Part shown: piece after piece, positions 4,563 to 35,416 of the stretch | Numbering within the stretch: the first letter of the stretch is position 1 | How the letters are laid out: each line of letters opens with the position of its first letter | Source of the DNA: a virus | Virus record (IMG/VR): IMGVR_UViG_3300021432_000021 | Coordinates: 1 to 41,413 of that record | DNA length: 41,413 nucleotides | Strand: one strand, 5' to 3' | Notes under the pieces: model-generated | The model's input: only the letters and a program-made list of their open reading frames with translations | Database searches by the model: none | What the model was told of the DNA's origin: nothing | Position numbers and translations under genes: made by a program

Positions 4563-7500
4563 ATGCCGGGTGAGTACCTACCTCCGGTCATCGCGGAGTT
4601 CCAGGCTGACATCGCCGCCTTCCTCGCAAAGCTGGAGGAGGCCAAGCTAGCGCTGCGCTCGTTCAAGGATGAGGCCGGGCGCGGCACCATCATGCGGGTC
4701 ACGATGGACGACAATGCCGCGCGCACCGAGGGCAGGCGGCTTGAGAGCGACATGGCCGCCACGGGTGACCGGATCGGCCGCCGCATGGGCGACGGCATGT
4801 CCAATGGCATCCGGGACGGCCTGAGGCGGACAAGCAGGGACGCACAGCTCGCTGCCGACCTGGCCAGCGACAGCTTCATCCGGCGCTTCCGCGCCAATAT
4901 GGCGGGGGCGACGGGCGGCGGTTTCGGCGGCGGTTTCTTCGGCATGGGCGCAGCCGGGTTCGGCGCGGCGGCCATTGGCGGCGCGCCGCTCATCGCCGGG
5001 GCGGCCTTCCCGGTGGTCGGCGCGGCGGTCACGGGCGCGTCGGCAGTTGGCGGCTCTCTGCCGATGCTCATGCTGCTCAAGGACGCCTACGGCGAGGTCA
5101 CCAAGGCGGCTGGGACGCTGGAGTCGCAGACCAACACCTACAATGCGGCGGCGGCCAGGACCGCGACGTTCCTGGCCACGGATACGCAGGCCGCGTCCAG
5201 CTACCAGCAGCTTCTGGGTCAGCTCACGCCGACGCAGGCCGGGTCGCTCCAGCTTCTGACGCAGCAGGACGTGCAGTGGCAGAACTTGACGCTGACGCAG
5301 CAGGCCGGGCTGATCCAGCTCCGCGACACACAGGCGATTTACAAGGCCCTCTCGTCCTCGCAGCAGATTTCGCTCAACGCGCTCATCGCTGAGCAGAAGG
5401 CGTGGTCTAACCTGGTGCCGCAGCAGCAGCAGGCGGTTGTCAACTACCAGGCCATGCACGATCAGTACGACGCCCTGCGGCAGGCGGCGATGCCCGCGAT
5501 GTTCGGCATGATCGCATCGGCGGAGCAGGCGGCCACGGACGCTCTCAAGCCGCTGCTGCCGCTTGTGAACGCCATGGCGGACGCCTGGAAGCTGATGTTC
5601 GACAAGATCGACCAAGGGCTCAAGGGAAGCGGCTACCAGAAGTTCATCGACACCCTCACCACGGCGGGCCCGCAGGCGTTCACCGGCCTGACGACGGCCC
5701 TGGGCAATATCGGGCTGGGCTTCGTGCACATCTGGGAAGCCCTCCAGCCGATGGCCCCCGTCTTCCTGGACTGGCTCGACCGGGCCACGGCGGGCTTTGC
5801 GAAGTGGGCAACAACTCCGCGCGGTATCACGGACATTCAGCACTTCATGTCTGTGTTGGAGCAGAACGGGCCAGGTACTTGGCAGATCCTGACGAAACTC
5901 GCGGAGACCGTCGGGACATTCTTCGCCATCTTCGCCGGGGACCAGGCCATCCTCCAGATAATGAACGTCTTCGCGACGTGGCTGCTGGACATCATGCGAA
6001 ACCCCGTGGGGCGCTTCGCAGTTGAGATGCTGTCCTTCGGTATTGCCATTGAGAGGGTTGCCTCCGCGCTCAAGCTGCTGGCTATCGCACAGGCGCTCTA
6101 TGCGGCTGCGGGTGGGGCCTCGGCGCTCCGAGGGCTTGGTGGCGCGGCGGCGGGCGGAGTAGCGGCGCGGGCCGCAGGAGGTGCCGCAGGAGGTGCCGCA
6201 GGAGCGGCGGGCGGTGCGGCAGCAGGCGGCGCAGCGTCTGCGGGAGGCGGGGCAGCCAGCGCACTGTTCAACGCTATCCCGATCCAAGCAAAGATCGTGG
6301 CTGCCGGTGTCATTATCGGTGGGGCCATTCTTGCCTATGCTGGGAATATCCAGCAGAAGTCCGACCAGGCCAAGGGCATCATTCAGAATGCCGACGGTAC
6401 GGTGGGCGCGGCCACCACGGTGGCAGGCACGAAGGTCAGCCAGGCTTTTCAGAATCTGGCGAACAGCTTCGGCGGCTCCGGTTCCGGCAGCGCATCCGGG
6501 GCGGGTGCGGCGGCATCCGCGATCCTCAAGGCGGGTGGCTCGATTCAGCAGGCCAACCAGGCGTACGCCGACTTCATTAAGAACGGCAATGCCAAGGTTG
6601 TTGATGTAATGAACTTGGGAAAGACGCAGTTCGGACAGTCGACGGCTCTATTCGTGGCCGCCTTTGGTGGGGATGTTGGTGGCCTAGCCACGACCATCAA
6701 GGCCAGCGGGAAAACGTTGGATCAGGCATGGGCTCAGCAGATCGACACATTCTTCACACAGGCGTCTCTCCACTCCACTGCATCCTGGGCTTCGTACTAC
6801 AAGGCGACCGGCCAGGCGCAGGATATGACGTTCCAGAAGATAGAGGCAAACACCAAGACCGACTACACCAACCTCCAGAGTGCCTGGGATCAGCTCCAGT
6901 CGGATGCGAAGAATCATCGTAAGGATCTGGAAGCCAAGGACATGGCTGCCGTCCAGTCGGCCTGGGATAAGATCCAGCAGGATGCGACGACCGGTCAGAT
7001 CGACACGCAGAACAAGAACATCAAAAGCCTGGAGACCGACTTCACCAAGTTTTTCCAGGACATGAAGAATGGCGACACGGTAGCCATGCAGCAGGACCTG
7101 GCCAAGCTCGGTTCGGATGTGAGCCAGTCCTGGAAGAACGACACGGATCTCATGTCCAAGCTGGCTCAGGCCACGACCACCAAAGACATCCAGGCCATCA
7201 CCAATACCTGGATCACTCAGCAGGCCCATCTTACCCAGTCAGTACTAGCTCAGCTTGATGCTGACATTGCCAGGGCGCAGGCAGAGGTGACAGCCGCAGA
7301 GCAGAAGCTACAGCCGACTGGCGGCGCCTTCCCGCACGGTCACGCCATGGGTGGCTTCATCTCCGGTCCCGGCACCGGCACTTCGGACTCGATTCCGGCG
7401 CACTGGCTGTCGCATGGCGAGTTTGTCGTCAACGCCCGCTCCACGGCACAGCATCGGCAACTCCTGGAGGCGCTCAACAGCCAGGGACATGCAACGGGCG

Positions 7501-8189
7501 GCTTCGTGGATTCCGTTGACGCTGGTGTCACGATGGGCGCTGGCCTTGGCGCTGTCTCGGCGTTGCTGAATATGGACCTCGGGGCGATTGGCCAAATCGC
7601 AGCCGCCCAGGCCGCTGCTGCTGCCGCTGCCAACGTGCCCGGCGGGAGCGCCCCGGCGAACCTGGAGGCGTACGCCCTGTCGCTGTTCGCCTCGCACGGC
7701 TGGACCTCGGCGCAGATGCCAGCGCTCATCGCCCTCTGGAACCGGGAGTCGGGCTGGAACCCGAACGCGCGCAACGCCTCCTCGGGTGCGGCGGGCATCC
7801 CGCAGGACATCACCGGCAACTTCCACGGCGGCGCGGCCGGTCAGATCCAATGGGGCGAGAACTACATCGCCTCGCGCTACGGCAGCCCGCAGGCGGCCTG
7901 GAACCATGAGGTGGCCTACGGCTGGTACGACACGGGCGGCAAGGTCGGGCGCGGTCGCACCGTGCTGGACAACGGCACGGGCCTGCCCGAGGCGTTGCTG
8001 ACCGCCTCGCAGTGGAACAGCATCACGCGCCTTGCGTCCGCCGGGGCCCAGAGCCAGGGGGCCGTGATCGAGAACGTGGTAAACCTTGACGGCAAGACGA
8101 TTCACCGTTCGGTGCGTCAGGTGGAGTGGCGCAGCCAGCGCCGCAACGGCGGTACGACGCTGCTCATTCCGGGACTGGGGGCTTCATGA
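4563..8189 (+). CDS. Tape measure protein with C-terminal transglycosylase-like domain
   Basis: The 1208-residue protein sets tail length and is probably ejected ahead of the DNA. Ala/Gln-rich helices fill residues about 1-115 and 170-480. A Gly/Ala hydrophobic stretch lies at about 117-170 and further Ala/Gly-rich membrane-like stretches at about 500-600. A GGFISGPGTGTSDSIPA signature of tape measure C-termini lies near residues 928-945. Residues about 1035-1125 form a lytic-transglycosylase-like (SLT) domain: LWNRESGWNP with candidate catalytic Glu1062, then SSGAAGIPQ, which would cut peptidoglycan during entry. It starts 10 bp after the preceding stop with GGAGGGG upstream. Confidence 0.92.
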   Translation: MPGEYLPPVIAEFQADIAAFLAKLEEAKLALRSFKDEAGRGTIMRVTMDDNAARTEGRRLESDMAATGDRIGRRMGDGMSNGIRDGLRRTSRDAQLAADLASDSFIRRFRANMAGATGGGFGGGFFGMGAAGFGAAAIGGAPLIAGAAFPVVGAAVTGASAVGGSLPMLMLLKDAYGEVTKAAGTLESQTNTYNAAAARTATFLATDTQAASSYQQLLGQLTPTQAGSLQLLTQQDVQWQNLTLTQQAGLIQLRDTQAIYKALSSSQQISLNALIAEQKAWSNLVPQQQQAVVNYQAMHDQYDALRQAAMPAMFGMIASAEQAATDALKPLLPLVNAMADAWKLMFDKIDQGLKGSGYQKFIDTLTTAGPQAFTGLTTALGNIGLGFVHIWEALQPMAPVFLDWLDRATAGFAKWATTPRGITDIQHFMSVLEQNGPGTWQILTKLAETVGTFFAIFAGDQAILQIMNVFATWLLDIMRNPVGRFAVEMLSFGIAIERVASALKLLAIAQALYAAAGGASALRGLGGAAAGGVAARAAGGAAGGAAGAAGGAAAGGAASAGGGAASALFNAIPIQAKIVAAGVIIGGAILAYAGNIQQKSDQAKGIIQNADGTVGAATTVAGTKVSQAFQNLANSFGGSGSGSASGAGAAASAILKAGGSIQQANQAYADFIKNGNAKVVDVMNLGKTQFGQSTALFVAAFGGDVGGLATTIKASGKTLDQAWAQQIDTFFTQASLHSTASWASYYKATGQAQDMTFQKIEANTKTDYTNLQSAWDQLQSDAKNHRKDLEAKDMAAVQSAWDKIQQDATTGQIDTQNKNIKSLETDFTKFFQDMKNGDTVAMQQDLAKLGSDVSQSWKNDTDLMSKLAQATTTKDIQAITNTWITQQAHLTQSVLAQLDADIARAQAEVTAAEQKLQPTGGAFPHGHAMGGFISGPGTGTSDSIPAHWLSHGEFVVNARSTAQHRQLLEALNSQGHATGGFVDSVDAGVTMGAGLGAVSALLNMDLGAIGQIAAAQAAAAAAANVPGGSAPANLEAYALSLFASHGWTSAQMPALIALWNRESGWNPNARNASSGAAGIPQDITGNFHGGAAGQIQWGENYIASRYGSPQAAWNHEVAYGWYDTGGKVGRGRTVLDNGTGLPEALLTASQWNSITRLASAGAQSQGAVIENVVNLDGKTIHRSVRQVEWRSQRRNGGTTLLIPGLGAS

Positions 8190-10867
8190 CCATCTCGGTA
8201 GTGCACTCCGCCAGCGCCGTCTCGGCGGACTCGGTGGGCATCATCACGAAGGCGTTCTCCAGCACGGCGGGGAACACGCTGTTCGCCATCGTGGCGGCCA
8301 ACGTGCAGAACAGCTCGTGGGTGCCGTCCTCGGTGACGGACAGCGCCCAGAACACGTGGGTGCCGGTCGGCACGCCCGTAGCGTCGGGCACCAACGGCGT
8401 CGTCGGTCAGGTCATGCTCGGGGCCTACATGTGCTCGAACGCGGCGGCGGTCAGCCAGGTGACGGCCAGCTTCGCCGGGTTCTGGGACAGCTCGGCGCAG
8501 GCCATCTACCTGTTCGAGGTGTCGGGGCTGACCAACACTTCCCCGCTGGACGTGACCGCGACGGCCCACAACTCCAGCGGCTCGCTGACGCCGTCGGCCA
8601 CTACTGGCAACGCGAGTGACTTCCTGCTGGCTGCGCACGTGATGGGCGACTTCACGCAGACGACCTCGCACACAGCCGATTCGTGGACCACGGTCTCCGA
8701 GGTCAACAACAACGGCGGCTCGCTGGACCCGGACGACTCGATCCGGCTCAACTGCGCCTACCGCATCGTCAGCTCGACCGGCGCGCAGTCCACCACGTGG
8801 ACGACCACGGGCACCCCGGCGGCGGCCGGGCTCATCCTGGCGGTCAAGGGCGGCTCGACCAACGTGGCCAACGCCAGCCCGTACTGGCCCGCCCTGTCTA
8901 CCAAGGTGGCTTTCGGCCAGCAGCCCAACGCGGCCGGGGTGGGCAGCTACACCTACTCCACGGACATCAGCCAGTACGTGCAGTCGGCCTCCATCCACTA
9001 CGGCATCCCGTTCGAGCTGGGCCAGGCCGAAGCCGGGGAGAATCAGCTCCTGCTCTACAACGCTGACGGCCGGTTCGACCATGGCAAGACCAGCTCCCCC
9101 TACTCCCCCAATGTGAAGGACTTCGTCCCGTTCCAGCAGATGGCCACCTGGAACGGGGTGCAGTACGGCGTCTTCACCGGGTACATGGAGAAGTGGCCGC
9201 AGAACTGGGACGACGTGGTCAACGGCATGTCGGCGGCCCTCGGCGTGGACGCTTACGCCACCCTGGCGCGGGTCAGGCTCAAGTCCTGTATGCAGCATGA
9301 GACCCTGCTGGACAACCCGTGGGGGTACTGGCCGCTCAACGACTCCTCCGGCTCGACCTACGCCGCGAACCTCGCCACCGGCAGCGGCGGCAACGTGCTG
9401 CTGGCCACCCAACCGCCGAAGCGTGCCACGGATGCCACGGCCAACTTCGGCACGGCCACGCGCCTCGCTGGCGACCCGAGCCCGGGCTGGGGCCAGACGG
9501 TGCCGACCCCGACGAACGACGCTGGCTGGAGCCTGTACAGCCGGGTCACCGGGGCCACCTTCCCGTCCCAGTCCAGCGGCAACGGGGTCACGTTCGAGAT
9601 GTGGGCCCAGATCCCCTTCGTACCGCAGCGCAACGATGAGATGACCCTGTTCGCGCTCAAGTCCTCCTCGGTGAGCTGGACCGATCATTTGATCTTCCGG
9701 CTCCAGGTGGACCAGAAGCAGGGCGGCAAGGGCACCCTGGGCAACCTGGTGATCCAGACGGTGGATTCCGGCGGGGCCTGGCACTGGACGGACCTGGCGA
9801 CGCGCACCTACTGCGACAACCGCTGGCACCACTTCGTGGTCAACTTCACTACGGCCAACACCACCATCTGGGCCGACGGCGTGCAGGTGTACAGCGCGGC
9901 ACGGAGCATCAACAGCGCGCAGATCGACACGATCGACGTGGGCGGACTCCAGGACGACTGGGAATTCACGGACATCGGCATCGGCACCTATGCCCACGTG
10001 GCGGCCTACGCCGGGTCCCTGTCGGCCAGCCGTATCCAGTCGCACTGGGAATCCGGTCACGCGGGCTTCCCCGAGGACTCTGGCAGCCGCATCAATCGCA
10101 TCCTCACCTACGCGGGCTGGTCCGGGCCGCGCGTGCTCGACCTGGGCTCGTCCGTGCTGGGCCCGTGCGCCACGATCCAGGGCCAGTGGGCCACGGACGC
10201 GCTCAACGACGTGGCGATCTGGGAATTCGGCTTGGTCTTCGTGGATCAGCTCGGCCGGTTCCGTTTCCAGAACCGCGTCAACCGGTTCAATCAGACCAGC
10301 AAGGGCAGCTTCGGGGACGGCTCCGAGTGGGTGCATCCCGAGGATGACATCTCGTTCACCTACGACCCCACCTACCAGTACAACGACATTCAGGGCCAGC
10401 GCACCACCTCCGACGGCACGACCGGCGGCCTGTTCCTGTCCGGCGACCCGAACAACACCATCGCGCAGCTCTTTACGAGCACGCTCCAGCTCGCCCTGTT
10501 CCTCGCCTCCGACGCGCAGGTGCAGGAGCGCATCTCCTTCCTCTACACCCTGCTCTCCGTACCTATGGTGCGCGTGGAGACCTTCACGCTCATCCCCTCC
10601 AACAACCCGATCATGTGGCCGTTCGTACTCGGCCTCAACATCGGGGACCGCTGGACCATCAACAGGCGGCCCATCGGCCGGTCCGACACCATCTCCGTGG
10701 ACGTGATCGTGTCGGCCATCAGTCATGAGATTTCCATCGGCGTCTGGAAGACCACGGTGTCGTGGCTGCCCGCAGTCACGCAGGCCACCACGCCCGGCGT
10801 GGGCCCCTGGCGACTGGACGACTCCACCCTGTCCGTTCTAGGCACTTCTACGGTCCTGGGGATCTAA
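8186..10867 (+). CDS. Large minor tail protein with N-terminal beta domain and LamG-like domain
   Basis: Start chosen at ATG 8186, in an ATGA overlap with the tape measure stop, giving 893 residues. Residues about 1-225 form a Ser/Thr-rich beta-sandwich-like domain ending in GLILAVKGG. Residues about 226-365 resemble the baseplate/distal-tail domain of siphovirus minor tail proteins. Residues about 370-625 look like a concanavalin/laminin-G fold: WGYWPLND, VTFEMWAQIP, RWHHFVVNF, IWADGVQV. The C-terminal region (about 650-893) looks like a hub domain. It probably forms the tail tip and binds host surface sugars. The N-terminal domain resembles the secreted protein at 25100-25807. Confidence 0.85.
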   Translation: MTISVVHSASAVSADSVGIITKAFSSTAGNTLFAIVAANVQNSSWVPSSVTDSAQNTWVPVGTPVASGTNGVVGQVMLGAYMCSNAAAVSQVTASFAGFWDSSAQAIYLFEVSGLTNTSPLDVTATAHNSSGSLTPSATTGNASDFLLAAHVMGDFTQTTSHTADSWTTVSEVNNNGGSLDPDDSIRLNCAYRIVSSTGAQSTTWTTTGTPAAAGLILAVKGGSTNVANASPYWPALSTKVAFGQQPNAAGVGSYTYSTDISQYVQSASIHYGIPFELGQAEAGENQLLLYNADGRFDHGKTSSPYSPNVKDFVPFQQMATWNGVQYGVFTGYMEKWPQNWDDVVNGMSAALGVDAYATLARVRLKSCMQHETLLDNPWGYWPLNDSSGSTYAANLATGSGGNVLLATQPPKRATDATANFGTATRLAGDPSPGWGQTVPTPTNDAGWSLYSRVTGATFPSQSSGNGVTFEMWAQIPFVPQRNDEMTLFALKSSSVSWTDHLIFRLQVDQKQGGKGTLGNLVIQTVDSGGAWHWTDLATRTYCDNRWHHFVVNFTTANTTIWADGVQVYSAARSINSAQIDTIDVGGLQDDWEFTDIGIGTYAHVAAYAGSLSASRIQSHWESGHAGFPEDSGSRINRILTYAGWSGPRVLDLGSSVLGPCATIQGQWATDALNDVAIWEFGLVFVDQLGRFRFQNRVNRFNQTSKGSFGDGSEWVHPEDDISFTYDPTYQYNDIQGQRTTSDGTTGGLFLSGDPNNTIAQLFTSTLQLALFLASDAQVQERISFLYTLLSVPMVRVETFTLIPSNNPIMWPFVLGLNIGDRWTINRRPIGRSDTISVDVIVSAISHEISIGVWKTTVSWLPAVTQATTPGVGPWRLDDSTLSVLGTSTVLGI

Positions 10868-10876
10868 GGGGGACGT

Positions 10877-11431
10877 ATGGCCACCGTTCCCGTCCCGCGC
10901 ACATGGACGACCGGGGAGATCATCACCGCTGCGGAGATGAACACCGAGATCCGCGACTCGGTGAACTTCCTGCTGGCCACCCCGCGCTGCATCATCTACC
11001 GCAGCACCGACCGGATCTGCGGCTCCAGCTCCACGCCGTCAGCCATCCTGTTCGACACGGAGATCACCGACACCGACTCCATGCACAGCGGCAGCAACAC
11101 CTACATGGTGGCCAACACGGCGGGCCGGTACGAGTTCATCCTCTATATCCACTTCCCGTCCTTCTCGTCCGCCCCCGGCACGGCGCAGTGCGGCATCGCC
11201 CTCAACTCCTCGGGGACCTGGAGCGCCACCAGCCGTCTCAACGAGGACACGCGCATCATGTGCCAGGACACGACGCTGGGGACCTCGCTGTCGATCCGGG
11301 CCGTGCAGTACATGAACGTCAATGACCAGGCGGAGTTCTTCGCCGCCCAGACCTGTGGCTCGACGCTGACCATCGCCGGTAACATCCCTTTCAACCTGAC
11401 AGCCAGCGGTCGCTGGCTGGCATCGAGCTAG
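10877..11431 (+). CDS. Tail-tip / putative receptor-binding protein, paralogue 1
   Basis: The 184-residue protein opens with the signature PVPRTWTTGEIITAAEMNTEIRD..NFLLATPRC, shared with the next two genes. The rest is beta-rich with VANTAGRYEFILYIHF, a jelly-roll/C1q-like pattern common in trimeric phage tail-tip proteins. GGGGGAC lies upstream of ATG 10877. Role is inferred from position after the large minor tail protein and from the fold-like pattern. The three copies probably arose by tandem duplication and now differ in their C-terminal beta domains. Confidence 0.7.
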   Translation: MATVPVPRTWTTGEIITAAEMNTEIRDSVNFLLATPRCIIYRSTDRICGSSSTPSAILFDTEITDTDSMHSGSNTYMVANTAGRYEFILYIHFPSFSSAPGTAQCGIALNSSGTWSATSRLNEDTRIMCQDTTLGTSLSIRAVQYMNVNDQAEFFAAQTCGSTLTIAGNIPFNLTASGRWLASS

Positions 11432-11440
11432 GGGGCCGCC

Positions 11441-12001
11441 GTGGCTGTCATTCCAGTCCAGCGAACCTGGGCCATAGGTGAGATCGTCTCCGCCTCGGAG
11501 TTGAACAGCAACATCCGCGATGCAATCAACTTCCTTCTGGCGACACCGCGTTGTGAGCTGACCAACTCAACTTCCTTTACTGTAGGGGGAAATGCTGTAT
11601 CGGTGCTGGTCAATTTCGACACGACGCTCACGGACACCGACTCCATGCACCCCAGCTCAGGTGCCCGCATCACCGCCAACACTGCTGGCCTGTACGAGTG
11701 CTGGGCGCAGATCCACTTCCCCTTCCTCAACAATGCTGCCAACTCCATTGGTGCAGGTGTATTCCTGACGAAAGATGACGGAGGAACCTTCACCAATCAG
11801 GTCGTTGAGGCCAATGACTTCCGCCGGATCTCACAGAATTCCGGATTGGGCACCTCGTCTTACGTCTCCAAAGACATTTACCTCAACGTTGGGGACTACG
11901 TCTCCCTCTGGGGGATGCAGAACACGGGGAGCAGTATGACCACCAATGGTGGCGGCATCTTCTACATCCATCTAGCGGCTCAGTGGGTGGCGTCGACATG
12001 A
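11441..12001 (+). CDS. Tail-tip / putative receptor-binding protein, paralogue 2
   Basis: The 186-residue protein starts at GTG 11441. The N-terminus IPVQRTWAIGEIVSASELN..IRDAINFLLATPRC closely matches the flanking paralogues, as does TANTAGLYECWAQIHFPF at about residues 79-96. Divergence is concentrated in the C-terminal half, where receptor contact is expected. Codon use is a little less G+C-biased than in its neighbours (for example ttt, gga, aat), which could mark recent exchange. Confidence 0.7.
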   Translation: MAVIPVQRTWAIGEIVSASELNSNIRDAINFLLATPRCELTNSTSFTVGGNAVSVLVNFDTTLTDTDSMHPSSGARITANTAGLYECWAQIHFPFLNNAANSIGAGVFLTKDDGGTFTNQVVEANDFRRISQNSGLGTSSYVSKDIYLNVGDYVSLWGMQNTGSSMTTNGGGIFYIHLAAQWVAST

Positions 12002-12642: not shown

Positions 12643-13146
12643 ATGAGGCGCTGGCCCAGCCCGTTCGGTAAGAAGCAGTCCGACAGCGCGGACGTGGGGT
12701 CGGACTCCGCCGACCCGCGCTGTATGCCGGTCCAGATCGGCCCCGGCGGTCCAGTGGCATGGCCTACCTACAATCCCGCCGACGACGATGTGCGGCGCGG
12801 CGCGAAGGGCGAGCATCCGCGTACCGACGACGAGGTCATGACCGCCGTGCACGGGCGGCCCCCGCACAAGCGCACGGCGATTCCCAACCCGGGCGACCAG
12901 GTCCACTACGTCCGGCATGAGTGGGGCGACCCTGAGCCCGCAACAGTGCTCCAGGTGCAGTCAGTCTATGAACGGTCCGGTCCGGGCGGTCTGCGCCCGC
13001 GCGGGCCCGACGAGCCGGTGGACCCGAATCTGCATATCAACCGGGGGGGCGACCCTATGCCGCTGCTGCTGCTCATGACGGCCGACGGCCTCTACACGTG
13101 GACTCGCGAGGCCCGCGTGCGGGGATCGGCGGGGTGGATGCCGTGA
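12643..13146 (+). CDS. Hypothetical protein after the tail-tip genes
   Basis: The 167-residue protein has AGGAGG upstream of ATG 12643. The N-terminus is basic, the middle is rich in Pro/Gly/Asp, and PGDQVHYVRHEWG-x5-ATVLQVQS looks like a small beta-barrel segment. No family recognised. Position suggests a minor virion component or an accessory to the tail tip. The next gene starts in its stop codon (GTGA). Confidence 0.6.
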   Translation: MRRWPSPFGKKQSDSADVGSDSADPRCMPVQIGPGGPVAWPTYNPADDDVRRGAKGEHPRTDDEVMTAVHGRPPHKRTAIPNPGDQVHYVRHEWGDPEPATVLQVQSVYERSGPGGLRPRGPDEPVDPNLHINRGGDPMPLLLLMTADGLYTWTREARVRGSAGWMP

Positions 13147-25059: not shown

Positions 25060-25099
25060 GATGGCTTCGGCCAATCAGCACACAGGAAGGCATAGAAAG

Positions 25100-25807
25100 A
25101 TGAAGCGTTTCTCTATCGTTGCAGCAGTACTTGCACTGATCTCATCCCTTTTCACCATGGGGCTTGCGGCCACCTCCGCCAGCGCTGCCTCAACCTGGGC
25201 CCGCGTCGGCTCCGCCCACGGAGCCTGGGCGCAGGGGCTGCATTCCCTTAGCATCCCCGCCCCGACGGTGGGCAACTGGGTGGTCTTCACCGCAACCGTT
25301 GACACGACGAGTGGCAATCACATCACTTCTATCTCAGGCGGCGGTGTCACGTCCTGGAATAAGGTCGTTTCCGGCTACTGGTCCGGCAACGGATTCGACA
25401 TGGAGCTGTGGTACGGCAAGGTCCAGCACACGGGAGGAACCACCATCACCCCCGTGCTGTCTGCCAGCAATGCCGGATGGGGCACGGAGTATGACGCTCA
25501 GCAGTTCTCCGGACCAACCGTGGTCCACGTGGATGGGGCCGCGACGCAGGAGATTCCCTCGACTACTGCGATGAGCTTCCCCCCGCTGCATGCTGCGCAC
25601 AGTCATGAGCTGTACGTTGGATACTCGGTCGCATGGGGAACCCCCACGGGTACTACCCCCGGCTTCACCTACAGGCAGCCCATCGGCCTCGGAGGGATGC
25701 TGCTCTGCTTCGACCCCTCCGTCAGTGGGGCGGTGCAGCCAACAGCGACAGACATTCAGGCTCGCTTTCCGCGTGACTCTATCGCTGGGCTGCTCAGTGG
25801 CTCTTGA
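25100..25807 (+). CDS. Secreted protein sharing the beta domain of the large minor tail protein
   Basis: ATG 25100 with AGGAAGG 9 bp upstream, 235 residues. Residues 1-29 are a classic Sec signal peptide: MKRF, a hydrophobic core, then ATSASA before the probable cleavage. The mature part is Gly/Ser/Thr/Trp-rich beta sequence. Its pattern (GNWVVFTATV, TSWNKVV, MELWYGKVQ, YDAQQFSG, SHELYVGYSV) parallels the first 225 residues of the tail protein at 8186 (GNTLFAIVAANV, NTWVPVG, MLGAYMC, IYLFEVSG, DFLLAAHV). It should be exported by the infected cell. Blocking the phage receptor is one hypothesis; function is unknown. Confidence 0.75.
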   Translation: MKRFSIVAAVLALISSLFTMGLAATSASAASTWARVGSAHGAWAQGLHSLSIPAPTVGNWVVFTATVDTTSGNHITSISGGGVTSWNKVVSGYWSGNGFDMELWYGKVQHTGGTTITPVLSASNAGWGTEYDAQQFSGPTVVHVDGAATQEIPSTTAMSFPPLHAAHSHELYVGYSVAWGTPTGTTPGFTYRQPIGLGGMLLCFDPSVSGAVQPTATDIQARFPRDSIAGLLSGS

Positions 25808-25964
25808 CAAATACGGACACGATCCGGAGCTGTGCTTCCCCGGGCGGGGCAAGGGAAAGTGCGTCTGCTCCTGCGAGATGTGCGTGCATTTCCGCAGCTA
25901 CGCACCGCCGTCCCCGCCCGCCCCGGCCAGTGATAATCTCAGATCGGATGGTCAAGAACTGTGA
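25797..25964 (+). CDS. Small cysteine-cluster protein (55 aa)
   Basis: The frame starting at GTG 25797, overlapping the secreted protein by 11 bp, encodes MALDKYGHDPELCFPGRGKG, then CVCSCEMC and a Pro-rich tail. The tight Cys cluster suggests a metal site. A competing frame beginning at TTG 25804 gives a low-complexity Arg/Ala product and is less convincing. Function unknown. Confidence 0.55.
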   Translation: MALDKYGHDPELCFPGRGKGKCVCSCEMCVHFRSYAPPSPPAPASDNLRSDGQEL

Positions 25965-26320: not shown

Positions 26321-26532
26321 GTGACTGCGCTGGCCACCGCTGGGTGCGAATGCCCCAACTCAACTTCACTCTCGACTTCACCTGCACCAGGTGCGGCGAC
26401 TACCTGGCCATGAAGATCCCTCGAGGCGACGCAGGAAAGCCGTTCACGGAGCTGTCCCAAGCGATCGGCGTTTCTGTGGCCGAGACCTACGGCGGACGGT
26501 ACATAGGCAGCCTGGAGATGATGAATGACTGA
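26317..26532 (+). CDS. Small protein with a CxxC motif
   Basis: The start is placed at ATG 26317 (ATGA overlap), 71 residues. SDCAGHRWVRMPQ and DFTCTRCGDYLAMKI could form a small zinc ribbon with Cys4 and His7. The C-terminal half is AGKPFTELSQAIGVSVAETY. No family recognised. Confidence 0.6.
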   Translation: MSDCAGHRWVRMPQLNFTLDFTCTRCGDYLAMKIPRGDAGKPFTELSQAIGVSVAETYGGRYIGSLEMMND

Positions 26533-27049
26533 GCTACTGCTCGGAGACTTCGGCCTGGTAGCCATGGGCGGCAACGTCGGCAAGGGTGTCCGCGCCGGGG
26601 AACGCCTGCTGCGCCTGCTGGAGGACCGCAAGGTTCCCGAGGGTGCCACCCGCTACGGCCACGCGTTCATCTACGTGGGCGACGGCATGATCGTGGAGGC
26701 CCGGCCGGGCGGCGCGCGGAAGACCCCCAACCCGTACCTGCACCGGCCCGAGCTTCTGTGGTCCAGCGGCTGGTTCCCCGACCTGACCGACACGATGCGC
26801 AGCAAGATCGTCCTCCATGCGAACATGCTGGCCGAATTGCGTACGCCCTACTCAGATCTGGACTATCTGGCCATCACGGCCCACGCGCTGCACATTCCCG
26901 CGCCCGGCCTGCGGTCGTACATCGAGACCTCCAAGCACATGATCTGCTCACAAGCGGTCGACTGGTGCTACGAGCCCTACCGGCTGTTCAAGGACGACCG
27001 CTGGGACGGCTTCGTGACCCCCATGGACCTGGCAGGACTCAAGCCATGA
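26525..27049 (+). CDS. Permuted papain-fold (NlpC/P60, YiiX-like) hydrolase
   Basis: ATG 26525 behind GGAGATG, 174 residues. GDFGLVAMGG opens the fold; RYGHAFIYVGDGMIVEARPGG carries the candidate His46 and acidic Glu58; SKHMICSQAVDWCYE carries the candidate nucleophile Cys141. His before Cys is the circularly permuted order of YiiX/DUF830-like amidases and peptidases. Being cytoplasmic (no signal) and in the early operon, it is unlikely to be a lysin. Cleavage of a host protein or lipid-linked amide is possible. Confidence 0.7.
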   Translation: MTELLLGDFGLVAMGGNVGKGVRAGERLLRLLEDRKVPEGATRYGHAFIYVGDGMIVEARPGGARKTPNPYLHRPELLWSSGWFPDLTDTMRSKIVLHANMLAELRTPYSDLDYLAITAHALHIPAPGLRSYIETSKHMICSQAVDWCYEPYRLFKDDRWDGFVTPMDLAGLKP

Positions 27050-27343: not shown

Positions 27344-27640
27344 ATGCCTAAGGGGACCAAGCGTCGCGGTGCACGCCTGCGCATAGCGGGCGAGTGCGAG
27401 CACTGCGGCCACAGTGCCGCTTCCTGGCCCATACTGCGCCGCTACGGCAAGTGGGGCGCACGCCTGGTGTGCTGCGACGTATGCCGGGGTCCCCGCACCG
27501 CAGACGCCCCCCTGGCCAATCCCGTAGTCCGTGCCGCAGGAGGCAGAGATGGCAGACGACAAGATCACCCCCGCCCACGCGCAGATCAAGAGCAGCCGGT
27601 ACACCGAGCACTACCCCGCTCACGGGACTCGCGAGGGTGA
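27344..27640 (+). CDS. Small basic zinc-ribbon protein overlapping the next gene
   Basis: ATG 27344 behind GGAAGGGG, 98 residues. The basic start KGTKRRGARLRI is followed by CEHCG ... CCDVCRG, a four-Cys ribbon (residues about 17-46). From about residue 68 it overlaps the next gene by 92 bp in another frame, and that part is low-complexity Arg/Asp sequence. The C-terminus may therefore be non-essential read-on. Confidence 0.55.
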   Translation: MPKGTKRRGARLRIAGECEHCGHSAASWPILRRYGKWGARLVCCDVCRGPRTADAPLANPVVRAAGGRDGRRQDHPRPRADQEQPVHRALPRSRDSRG

Positions 27641-28007
27641 CCCGCACTACGCCGACTTCAACGCCTTCCACCGCAAGATCAAGAAAGACCCGGCGCTTTA
27701 CCTGTGCGCCGTCGGCAAGGCGCGCGGCGACTACAGCGAGTGCACTCTCGATCTGCCGCTGGAAGTCCACCACTCGCACGTCGAGTGGGCGTTGCAGAAC
27801 ATGTTCATCCTCTTCCCGGAGGACGTGCAGATGCTTGAGCTCCAGTACCCCGGGGTCACCGATCCATCGCAGGTCGGCGCGTGGATCGAGAGCGAGGAGA
27901 ACCTGATGGTTCTCTGCCAGTTCCACCACCGTGGCCACGGCGGGGCGCACACCGCCAGCGCATCCGACTGGGAAGCGCAGAAGTTCGTGAAGGGGTTCCT
28001 GAGTTGA
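27549..28007 (+). CDS. HNH-like nuclease-fold protein
   Basis: Start chosen at ATG 27549, with AGGAGG at 27539-27544; 152 residues. The C-terminal half carries LEVHHSHVEWAL (paired His), then EENLMVLCQFHHRGHGGAH, matching the H-N-H order. The usual zinc CxxC pairs are absent. The N-terminal half includes HYADFNAFHRKIKKDPALYLC. It may be an active HNH enzyme or a degenerate one. Confidence 0.65.
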   Translation: MADDKITPAHAQIKSSRYTEHYPAHGTREGDPHYADFNAFHRKIKKDPALYLCAVGKARGDYSECTLDLPLEVHHSHVEWALQNMFILFPEDVQMLELQYPGVTDPSQVGAWIESEENLMVLCQFHHRGHGGAHTASASDWEAQKFVKGFLS

Positions 28008-30671: not shown

Positions 30672-31676
30672 TCACTTGCCCACCAGCTCCAGCACGCGGG
30701 ACATGGTGTCGCGGTCGGCGTTGACCGTGGTCCCCTCGATCGCGTTGATCATGTTGCGCTCGGTGCGCTCAGCACCCTTGACGCTCTGCACGTGCTGGCG
30801 GTACGTGTTGTCCGCCTGGAGCACGCCGAATGCCGTGCCGGACCACGGGGCGACGCGCAGATCCTGTGTCCACAGTCGCTCCAGCTCGTCCCGCTTGGTC
30901 GTGGCCATGGTCTGACCCCGCCCCGTCTTGCCCCTCTCGGGCATGGGGGCGAGGATCTCGTTCCGGATCTTGATCCACTGCGGCCGGGTGATGGTCACTG
31001 CGGTGAGCGCCGCCACCTCCGCAGCGAACGTCTCACTGTCCTGCTCGATCAGCGCCAGCGCGTCACGCGCCTCTCCGATCTTGGTCAGGCTGTTGGCGGA
31101 GTGGCGCACCTTGAACTGCTGCCCGCTCTCTCGCAGCGCCGCCGCCATGGTGTTGTCGCACACCACGTTGGTCACGACGCGCTTGTACGTGGTGGCCAGT
31201 GACCCGTCAAAGCTCGTCGCGGCCATGAGGTTGGGCCGGAACGCAACGCCCTCCGGGGTGGTGAAGTTCTCCGGGACCTCCACGGACACCCATGCCTGGC
31301 GGCCACCCCGGAGTAGTCCGGCCGACCCGACGGCCAAGCCACCATGCAGGATCATGGCCACGTTCTCCACGAGCCACTGCGAGTACTGGTGACCCTTGTA
31401 GCCGTTGGTGAAGATGCCCAGCACCTCCGCCGTCCGGCTGGACACCCAAGCCTGCCGGTTGGGGACCTCGGCGAACCCGAGCGGCGCGGCCGGGTCCATC
31501 ACGTAGATAGTCTGGGGGTCAACGGTGAAGTCGAACAGTGATTCCACCCGCTCCAGCGGGACCGCGCCGGGGTAGCTGTTGCTGTGACCCTGCCTGTGGT
31601 GCCACGCCTGCCCCCGCTTGTCGGTGAAGCCAATCAGCGTGTTCTGACTGAGCCACTGCAACGTCTCTGCGGACAT
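30672..31676 (-). CDS. DUF932 (phage/plasmid-like, TIGR03299-type) protein
   Basis: Start chosen at ATG 31676 (minus) after leader CTCAGAGAGGAAAGATC; 334 residues. Features of the family: an N-terminal LIGFTDKRGQAWHHRQG, AWVSVEVPENFTTPEGV at mid-protein, RVVTNVVCDNTMAAAL (about 190-205), a long helix and QSVKGAERTERNMINAIEG near the end. DUF932 proteins are widespread in phages and plasmids, and no biochemical role is firmly established to my knowledge. It is the largest gene of the operon after the ATPase. Confidence 0.8.
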   Translation of the reverse strand: MSAETLQWLSQNTLIGFTDKRGQAWHHRQGHSNSYPGAVPLERVESLFDFTVDPQTIYVMDPAAPLGFAEVPNRQAWVSSRTAEVLGIFTNGYKGHQYSQWLVENVAMILHGGLAVGSAGLLRGGRQAWVSVEVPENFTTPEGVAFRPNLMAATSFDGSLATTYKRVVTNVVCDNTMAAALRESGQQFKVRHSANSLTKIGEARDALALIEQDSETFAAEVAALTAVTITRPQWIKIRNEILAPMPERGKTGRGQTMATTKRDELERLWTQDLRVAPWSGTAFGVLQADNTYRQHVQSVKGAERTERNMINAIEGTTVNADRDTMSRVLELVGK

Positions 31677-31722
31677 GATCTTTCCTCTCTGAGTGGTTGG
31701 TCGGATGACCATCCATGACCAG

Positions 31723-31740
31723 GACCGGCCGGGGCCGGTC
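31723..31740 (-). promoter_or_regulatory. Intergenic stem-loop before the DUF932 gene
   Basis: GACCGGCC (31723-31730), GG, GGCCGGTC (31733-31740) form a perfect 8-bp stem with a 2-nt centre. In the direction of transcription it is followed after about 45 nt by the leader AGAGAGGAAAGATC and ATG 31676. Confidence 0.55.
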
Positions 31741-31767
31741 GTGATCAAAGCGGGTCAGCCTCGGTGC

Positions 31768-34918: not shown

Positions 34919-35416
34919 ATGGCTAAGACGACGACGGTGTACCTGTCCACCGAGCAGGTGGAGGCGATGGAGCGGCTGGACGTGCGGCTGGCGGACGTGA
35001 TCCGGGCCGGGTTCCAGGTGCTGGAGCTGATCGGGCCGCAGGGACCTCTGCGGGCCTCGGTGCAGGCGGCGGTCGACTCGGTGCGGACCGTCCCGGATTC
35101 CGATCCGTGGGAGGCGACGGCGGCCACGTCGAACGACGCAAGGGTGCTGTCGTTCGACACCGAGCCGATGCCGGAGGTGGTCCGCTCCGCCAGGTACAAC
35201 GCCGACGGCACGATCACCGTGGATCGGCGCGATAAGGGCTACTCCATCGGGATCAAGAACGGCATCCGCGAGAAGCGGGACGGCCAGAACTTGGTCACCG
35301 GCGGCACCGTCGAGGAGGTCAGCTACGTCGACCGCCCGTGCCCGCATCCTGCGGGCCGGGTACTCAAGGGGTTCTGTGGCGCTTGCGGCAGTCCCGTGAC
35401 GAAAGGCAAGAAGTGA
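34919..35416 (+). CDS. Ribbon-helix-helix DNA-binding protein with C-terminal zinc ribbon
   Basis: ATG 34919, 165 residues. Residues 1-36 (KTTTVYLSTEQVEAMERLDV, RLADVIRAGFQVL) have the strand-helix-helix form of RHH repressors. The middle is variable, with RYNADGTITVDRRDKGYSIG. The end CPHPAGRVLKGFCGACGSP is a zinc-ribbon-like cluster. It probably regulates this transcript by binding the palindromes upstream. No good ribosome site is present, so the message might be leaderless. Confidence 0.7.
   Translation: MAKTTTVYLSTEQVEAMERLDVRLADVIRAGFQVLELIGPQGPLRASVQAAVDSVRTVPDSDPWEATAATSNDARVLSFDTEPMPEVVRSARYNADGTITVDRRDKGYSIGIKNGIREKRDGQNLVTGGTVEEVSYVDRPCPHPAGRVLKGFCGACGSPVTKGKK

Follow-up and report, generated by a model that had tools for sequence, protein, structure and literature searches.

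A predicted secreted phage protein is homologous to the N-terminal domain of the phage's large tail protein

The window analysed here, a 41,413-base record of an uncultured virus, encodes a protein in which a single tail-type domain stands behind a Sec-type signal peptide (Table 1). This domain and the N-terminal domain of the large tail protein encoded in the same window are homologous and have a common fold, although the two are not a recent duplicate of one another. Sequence and analogy suggest, tentatively and at somewhat under an even chance, that this surface domain is exported early in infection, stays unanchored, binds a ligand of the cell envelope and lowers phage adsorption.

Table 1. 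Position and evidence for the secreted protein, the tail genes and an overlapping reading frame in the window
Feature	Position	Strand	Evidence or remark
Tape measure gene	4563-8189	+	Directly before the large tail protein gene
Large tail protein, 893 aa	8186-10867	+	phrog_5313, E 1e-40 over residues 123-868
Tail protein N-terminal domain, distantly homologous to the secreted domain	8186-8881	+	hhalign; AF2 pLDDT 76
Gene for the 235-aa predicted exported single-domain protein	25100-25807	+	Open reading frame; Shine-Dalgarno sequence; full-length match to the family profile, E 4e-53 (the protein is itself a row of that profile)
Predicted Sec-type signal peptide, residues 1-29, likely cleavage at ASA-A	25100-25186	+	Sequence, hydropathy
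Mature domain, 206 residues, minor-tail-type beta-sandwich	25187-25804	+	AF2 pLDDT 91.4, pTM 0.90; BFVD matches
Possible 55-aa Cys-containing gene	25797-25964	+	Open reading frame only; GTG start; overlaps the end of the secreted protein gene by 11 bases

The gene had been correctly delimited in the earlier note, with an ATG at 25100, a stop at 25807 and a Shine-Dalgarno sequence (AGGAAGG, 25084-25090) 9 nt upstream of the start. An alternative in-frame ATG at 25061 would lengthen the n-region of the protein and change nothing else, so either start leaves the export signal in place. Judged by sequence and hydropathy, the N-terminus (MKRFSIVAAVLALISSLFTMGLAATSASA, followed by A) is a textbook Sec signal peptide, with a KR n-region, a long hydrophobic core and an ASA-A motif, and the clear signal peptide that had been described is thereby borne out. 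The 15-residue hydropathy reaches a peak of 2.49 within the first 40 residues, and this is the only one of the 38 window genes examined for which the value exceeds 1.6. With its n-, h- and c-regions and its cleavage motif the protein has the features of a textbook Sec-exported protein, and we infer that it is exported and cleaved. Neither a lipobox, a sorting motif nor a second transmembrane stretch was found in its sequence, and no Cys lies near the cleavage site; a lipobox or membrane anchor of the kind known from Llp and Ltp is lacking. The short Cys-containing reading frame overlapping the end of the gene had no PHROG match. Were the signal peptide left uncleaved, or the protein retained in the membrane or wall, it could block DNA entry or the incoming tail tip, being Ltp-like in effect instead of masking a ligand. 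The length of the hydrophobic stretch would suit this, and phages of Gram-positive hosts are known to encode exclusion proteins that are exported (PMC3952083). The good ASA-A motif and the lack of a lipobox speak against it, as does the family, which is one of tail surface domains and not of known entry blockers, and we consider this explanation rather improbable.

The mature region had been described as paralleling, strand by strand, residues 1-225 of the large tail protein, at the level of pattern and not of close identity. Both parts of this description stood up. The two domains are about 15% identical. BLASTP aligns no more than 11 residues of them, at E 1.8, and hhalign reaches 3% and 0.4% when the tail domain is represented by its single sequence; neither result is convincing, so the resemblance is visible only with two real profiles. 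A phmmer search with the tail domain returns a bacterial member of the family, matched over nearly the full length (E 1e-6, residues 4-225 of 242), and this same bacterial domain is found by the family profile of the secreted protein at E 1e-16. With a profile built from the tail domain and its two bacterial relatives, rows belonging to the other profile are recovered (E 4e-22, 5e-19 and 3e-8). When two alignments with no common row were compared by hhalign, they were linked at 97.2% (E 3.9e-11) with a score of 76.7, as against 15.0 for a reversed alignment and at most 19.1 for 60 column shuffles; profile-profile comparison thus joins the two domains instead of placing them in unrelated families. 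The AF2 model of the secreted domain has a pLDDT of 91 and that of the tail domain one of 76; they have the same strand order, and for the most part their top 50 matches in a viral structure library are the same proteins, which is not the picture expected of folds that fail to superpose. The alignment used by AF2 for the tail domain was drawn from family members, and for this reason its fold is not wholly independent evidence, while the sequence evidence is independent. Together, the profile links, the controls, the shared strand order and the shared structure matches identify the pattern-level resemblance as homology. A further match obtained with a pattern scan for the tail-type motif, L041, proved to be unrelated.

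According to its AF2 model the mature region is one complete domain, with the last strand forming the C-terminus. In BFVD, the viral structure library, the model has 60 matches at E ≤ 0.001, the named ones including minor tail proteins, and both window domains match minor tail proteins of the mycobacteriophages Tweety, Hawkeye, DroogsArmy, Gaia, Stubby and Tonenili. The predicted folds of the proteins from Tweety (A5YJY9), Hawkeye (X2KSL9) and DroogsArmy (A0A6N0A3S7) resemble that of the secreted protein over the whole domain (TMq 0.71-0.73, other matches reaching 0.81; E 2e-6 to 2e-5). Minor tail proteins of uncultured Caudovirales likewise belong to this closest group. Tweety gp21 is too distant in sequence to be reached by the family profiles; it differs from the secreted protein in that its gene adjoins annotated minor tail genes and in having no comparable signal peptide. 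Foldseek returned no PDB match at E ≤ 0.001, and the highest VIA Z, covering 86 residues, was 6.6; this shows neither kinship nor a new fold. The matches there are weak and partial, and some are enzymes bearing CBMs. Sequence searches with the protein gave chance-level matches in the PDB, no entry in Pfam or PHROGs and no tblastn match among phages and plasmids, while exact-peptide scans recovered near-identical sibling contigs only.

The two domains belong to a beta-sandwich family of the minor-tail type ("SGGGVTxW"), for which there is no matching Pfam or PHROG entry, and which was located in bacteria and viruses by means of a degenerate DNA pattern encoding GGGVTxW and then ExWY. A tblastn search with a six-row profile returned 16 viral loci including the near-identical sibling, the other 15 having E values from 3e-11 to 6e-5, and the iterated profile collected 54 domains from 43 open frames, a count that includes loci occurring more than once. 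Viral copies either stand alone or lie, at times in tandem, within large proteins of the tail or tail-fibre-like kind. One phage, in which a tail-fibre-like protein ends with the domain, encodes in addition a relative of the window's large tail protein (L027:8657-10753); it aligns solely with the part that follows the N-terminal domain (27% over 640 columns). Among 296 genomes sampled from the phylum, 6 had bacterial members, one of the 6 being the genome that supplied a profile row; most of the proteins are large. One weakly matches glycosyl hydrolase 99 and has a Pro/Thr linker, and in others the companions are Fn3, rhamnogalacturonan-lyase beta-sheet, TIG, He_PIG or phosphoesterase domains. 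The family spans tail and tail-fibre proteins of tailed phages as well as secreted hydrolases and surface proteins of bacteria. Several of the bacterial proteins with a visible N-terminus have an export signal there (L034, L036 and L039) or a lipoprotein-like start (L004). The secreted proteins L035, L039 and L036, from Acidimicrobiaceae and other bacteria, have C-terminal domains of this family, but here it is one of several domains in a large protein, in the company of hydrolase, Fn3 or TIG domains.

The free-standing viral relatives have no signal peptide, and their start falls within the first strand or immediately ahead of it (MTIAAVG, MAFNLVG, MTITVV, MAIGTPV). Those on the IMG/VR contigs L013 and L021 have the same single-domain size as the secreted protein and are 36% and 30% identical to it, respectively; the L013 gene adjoins a tail-fibre-like gene, and the mature start of the window protein aligns a few residues after the start of the L021 protein. 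Among the roughly 20 viral members examined, the window protein is the only one with a signal peptide, which makes one species-level instance, and given this number the rarity of the form is known only roughly. As regards the surroundings of these genes, phrog_1128-type genes (window 26525-27049 and L021:7675-8223) each lie within about 1.5 kb downstream of a gene of the family. The HNH endonuclease at 27531-28007 is 54% identical to the one at L013:7234-7698, about 0.6 kb from the free-standing relative on that contig; as HNH genes are mobile, this resemblance may be due to chance.

A tree was built from 36 rows, and since its branches are long and many of its forks open, the details are unsure. 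The tail domain groups with the viral L044 and L045 and the bacterial L035 and L039 (96/94), while the secreted domain pairs with the viral L021 (83/81) within a mostly viral clade. A tree joining the two window domains is rejected (p-AU 0.001), and clearly so under the model used. The idea put forward earlier, that the protein looks like a free copy of this tail domain, is not supported: as the clades differ and the joined tree is rejected, the protein is not a soluble version of the phage's own domain by recent descent. A literal copy, i.e. a duplicate which has gained a signal peptide, would agree with the shared family and fold, but it would belong in the clade of the tail domain, where the secreted domain is not found, and is very improbable indeed. 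The difference in clade also makes it uncertain whether the secreted and tail domains share a ligand. Among the closest kin of the secreted protein are single-domain genes that stand free in other phages. The simplest history would be one in which a gene for a tail-type domain gained a signal peptide, and capture of a secreted host protein would fit the tree less well.

The large tail protein gene is followed on the + strand by more tail-region genes and an endolysin-like gene, and next by genes for an Erf-like annealing protein, an exonuclease, a replication initiator, and then HNH and RusA-like nucleases, with the large terminase gene near the end of the window. Two of the tail-region genes, the neighbouring 10877-11431 and 11441-12001, have similar N-termini (VPVPRTWTTGEIITAAEMN and IPVQRTWAIGEIVSASELN) and are probably tandem paralogues. 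A minus-strand reading frame (30672-31748) amid the + strand region has a strong match to phrog_1221 (E 2.6e-77), of unknown function. Two sibling contigs from one metagenome, IMGVR_UViG_3300021559_000046 and _000020, are each 100% identical to the window; they end and begin at window positions 12955-12958, neither spanning the join, and the linkage between the tail gene and the secreted protein gene depends on the assembly of the window across it. Portal, protease and another gene are carried by a sibling contig, which continues beyond the window. A 125-base stretch (35218-35341) is repeated at 91% identity about 7 kb on, past the window end in a sibling contig (L049:8971-9094). The terminase is closest to those of phages of Microcystis, Arthrobacter, Brevibacterium and Glutamicibacter (43-49% identity), which makes an actinobacterial host plausible.

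The secreted protein gene lies among replication and recombination genes, in a gene-dense + strand region about 14 kb from the tail module, i.e. outside the place where a structural protein of the virion would be sought. This position suggests early expression; a promoter was looked for and not found. It also bears on the proposal that the protein is a virion accessory, with a hydrophobic N-terminus that serves assembly or is a chance feature, and a domain that ends up on particles. The best viral relatives are indeed tail-type proteins, but they have no such N-terminus, and with the gene so far from the tail module this proposal appears quite improbable. Alternatively, the gene could be a moron serving the host, encoding a secreted adhesin or carbohydrate-binding protein that sticks infected or lysogenic cells to each other or to a substrate, with no part in phage competition. 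Bacterial secreted proteins do carry the same family, among them the one with the glycosyl hydrolase 99 match and linker, and often have export signals. The protein itself, however, falls in the mostly viral clade with free-standing phage genes, and its gene is located in the replication region; the window yielded no tyrosine integrase, and neither it nor the sibling contig, both of them fragments, yielded a serine recombinase. Such a role for the host is possible but unlikely.

The reading that we prefer, that of an exported and unanchored ligand-binding domain, would start with an infected cell making the protein, probably before virion assembly. Export and cleavage would yield a soluble domain, which may bind an envelope ligand, most likely a glycan of the cell wall or capsule. 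With these ligands occupied, fewer phages would adsorb to the infected cell and its neighbours, and fewer progeny to debris. Glycan binding is the likeliest activity because baseplate domains of other phages bind glycans and because the bacterial members accompany hydrolases and sugar-lyase-type domains, although homology within the family is insufficient to establish it. In the mycobacteriophage Douge, exposed beta-domains of the baseplate at the tail tip bind glycans of the host wall (PMC13033339), and a 2026 preprint describes glycan-binding baseplate domains for the phages Claus and Corndog (PMC13252515). The Douge domains are possible functional analogues of the secreted domain; they differ from it in being bound to the virion, and the likeness is one of function, kinship in sequence or fold aside. 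Exclusion of superinfection by exported phage proteins has been described for Llp of phage T5 and Ltp of phage TP-J34, which also act outside the cytoplasm (PMC9586334, PMC3952083). They are lipoproteins and, in the passages cited, are not described as relatives of tail domains, whereas the window protein has no lipobox. It is proposed that the secreted domain could coat the cell and its vicinity and exclude by lowering adsorption, as Llp and Ltp lower infection by other means.

The roles suggested in the earlier note, namely blocking of receptors, protection of progeny and action on neighbouring mycelium, are possible. A more specific version, in which a free tail-type adhesion domain is secreted and competes with virions for their ligands, so that infected neighbours or new progeny are shielded by a soluble, unanchored exclusion factor drawn from the adhesion parts of the virion, is conceivable, if somewhat doubtful. 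No precedent for a secreted tail domain was found in the literature searched, largely without subscription papers.

The family described here is one of phage tail domains that has no matching Pfam or PHROG entry and is also present in secreted hydrolases and surface proteins of soil bacteria. If the window protein is exported and binds sugars of the host surface, phages would be putting their tail adhesion domains to another use, with soluble forms set free ahead of lysis. This would constitute a simple and portable form of superinfection exclusion in thick-walled hosts, and the domain would be a small reagent with which the unknown receptors used by environmental phages could be sought.
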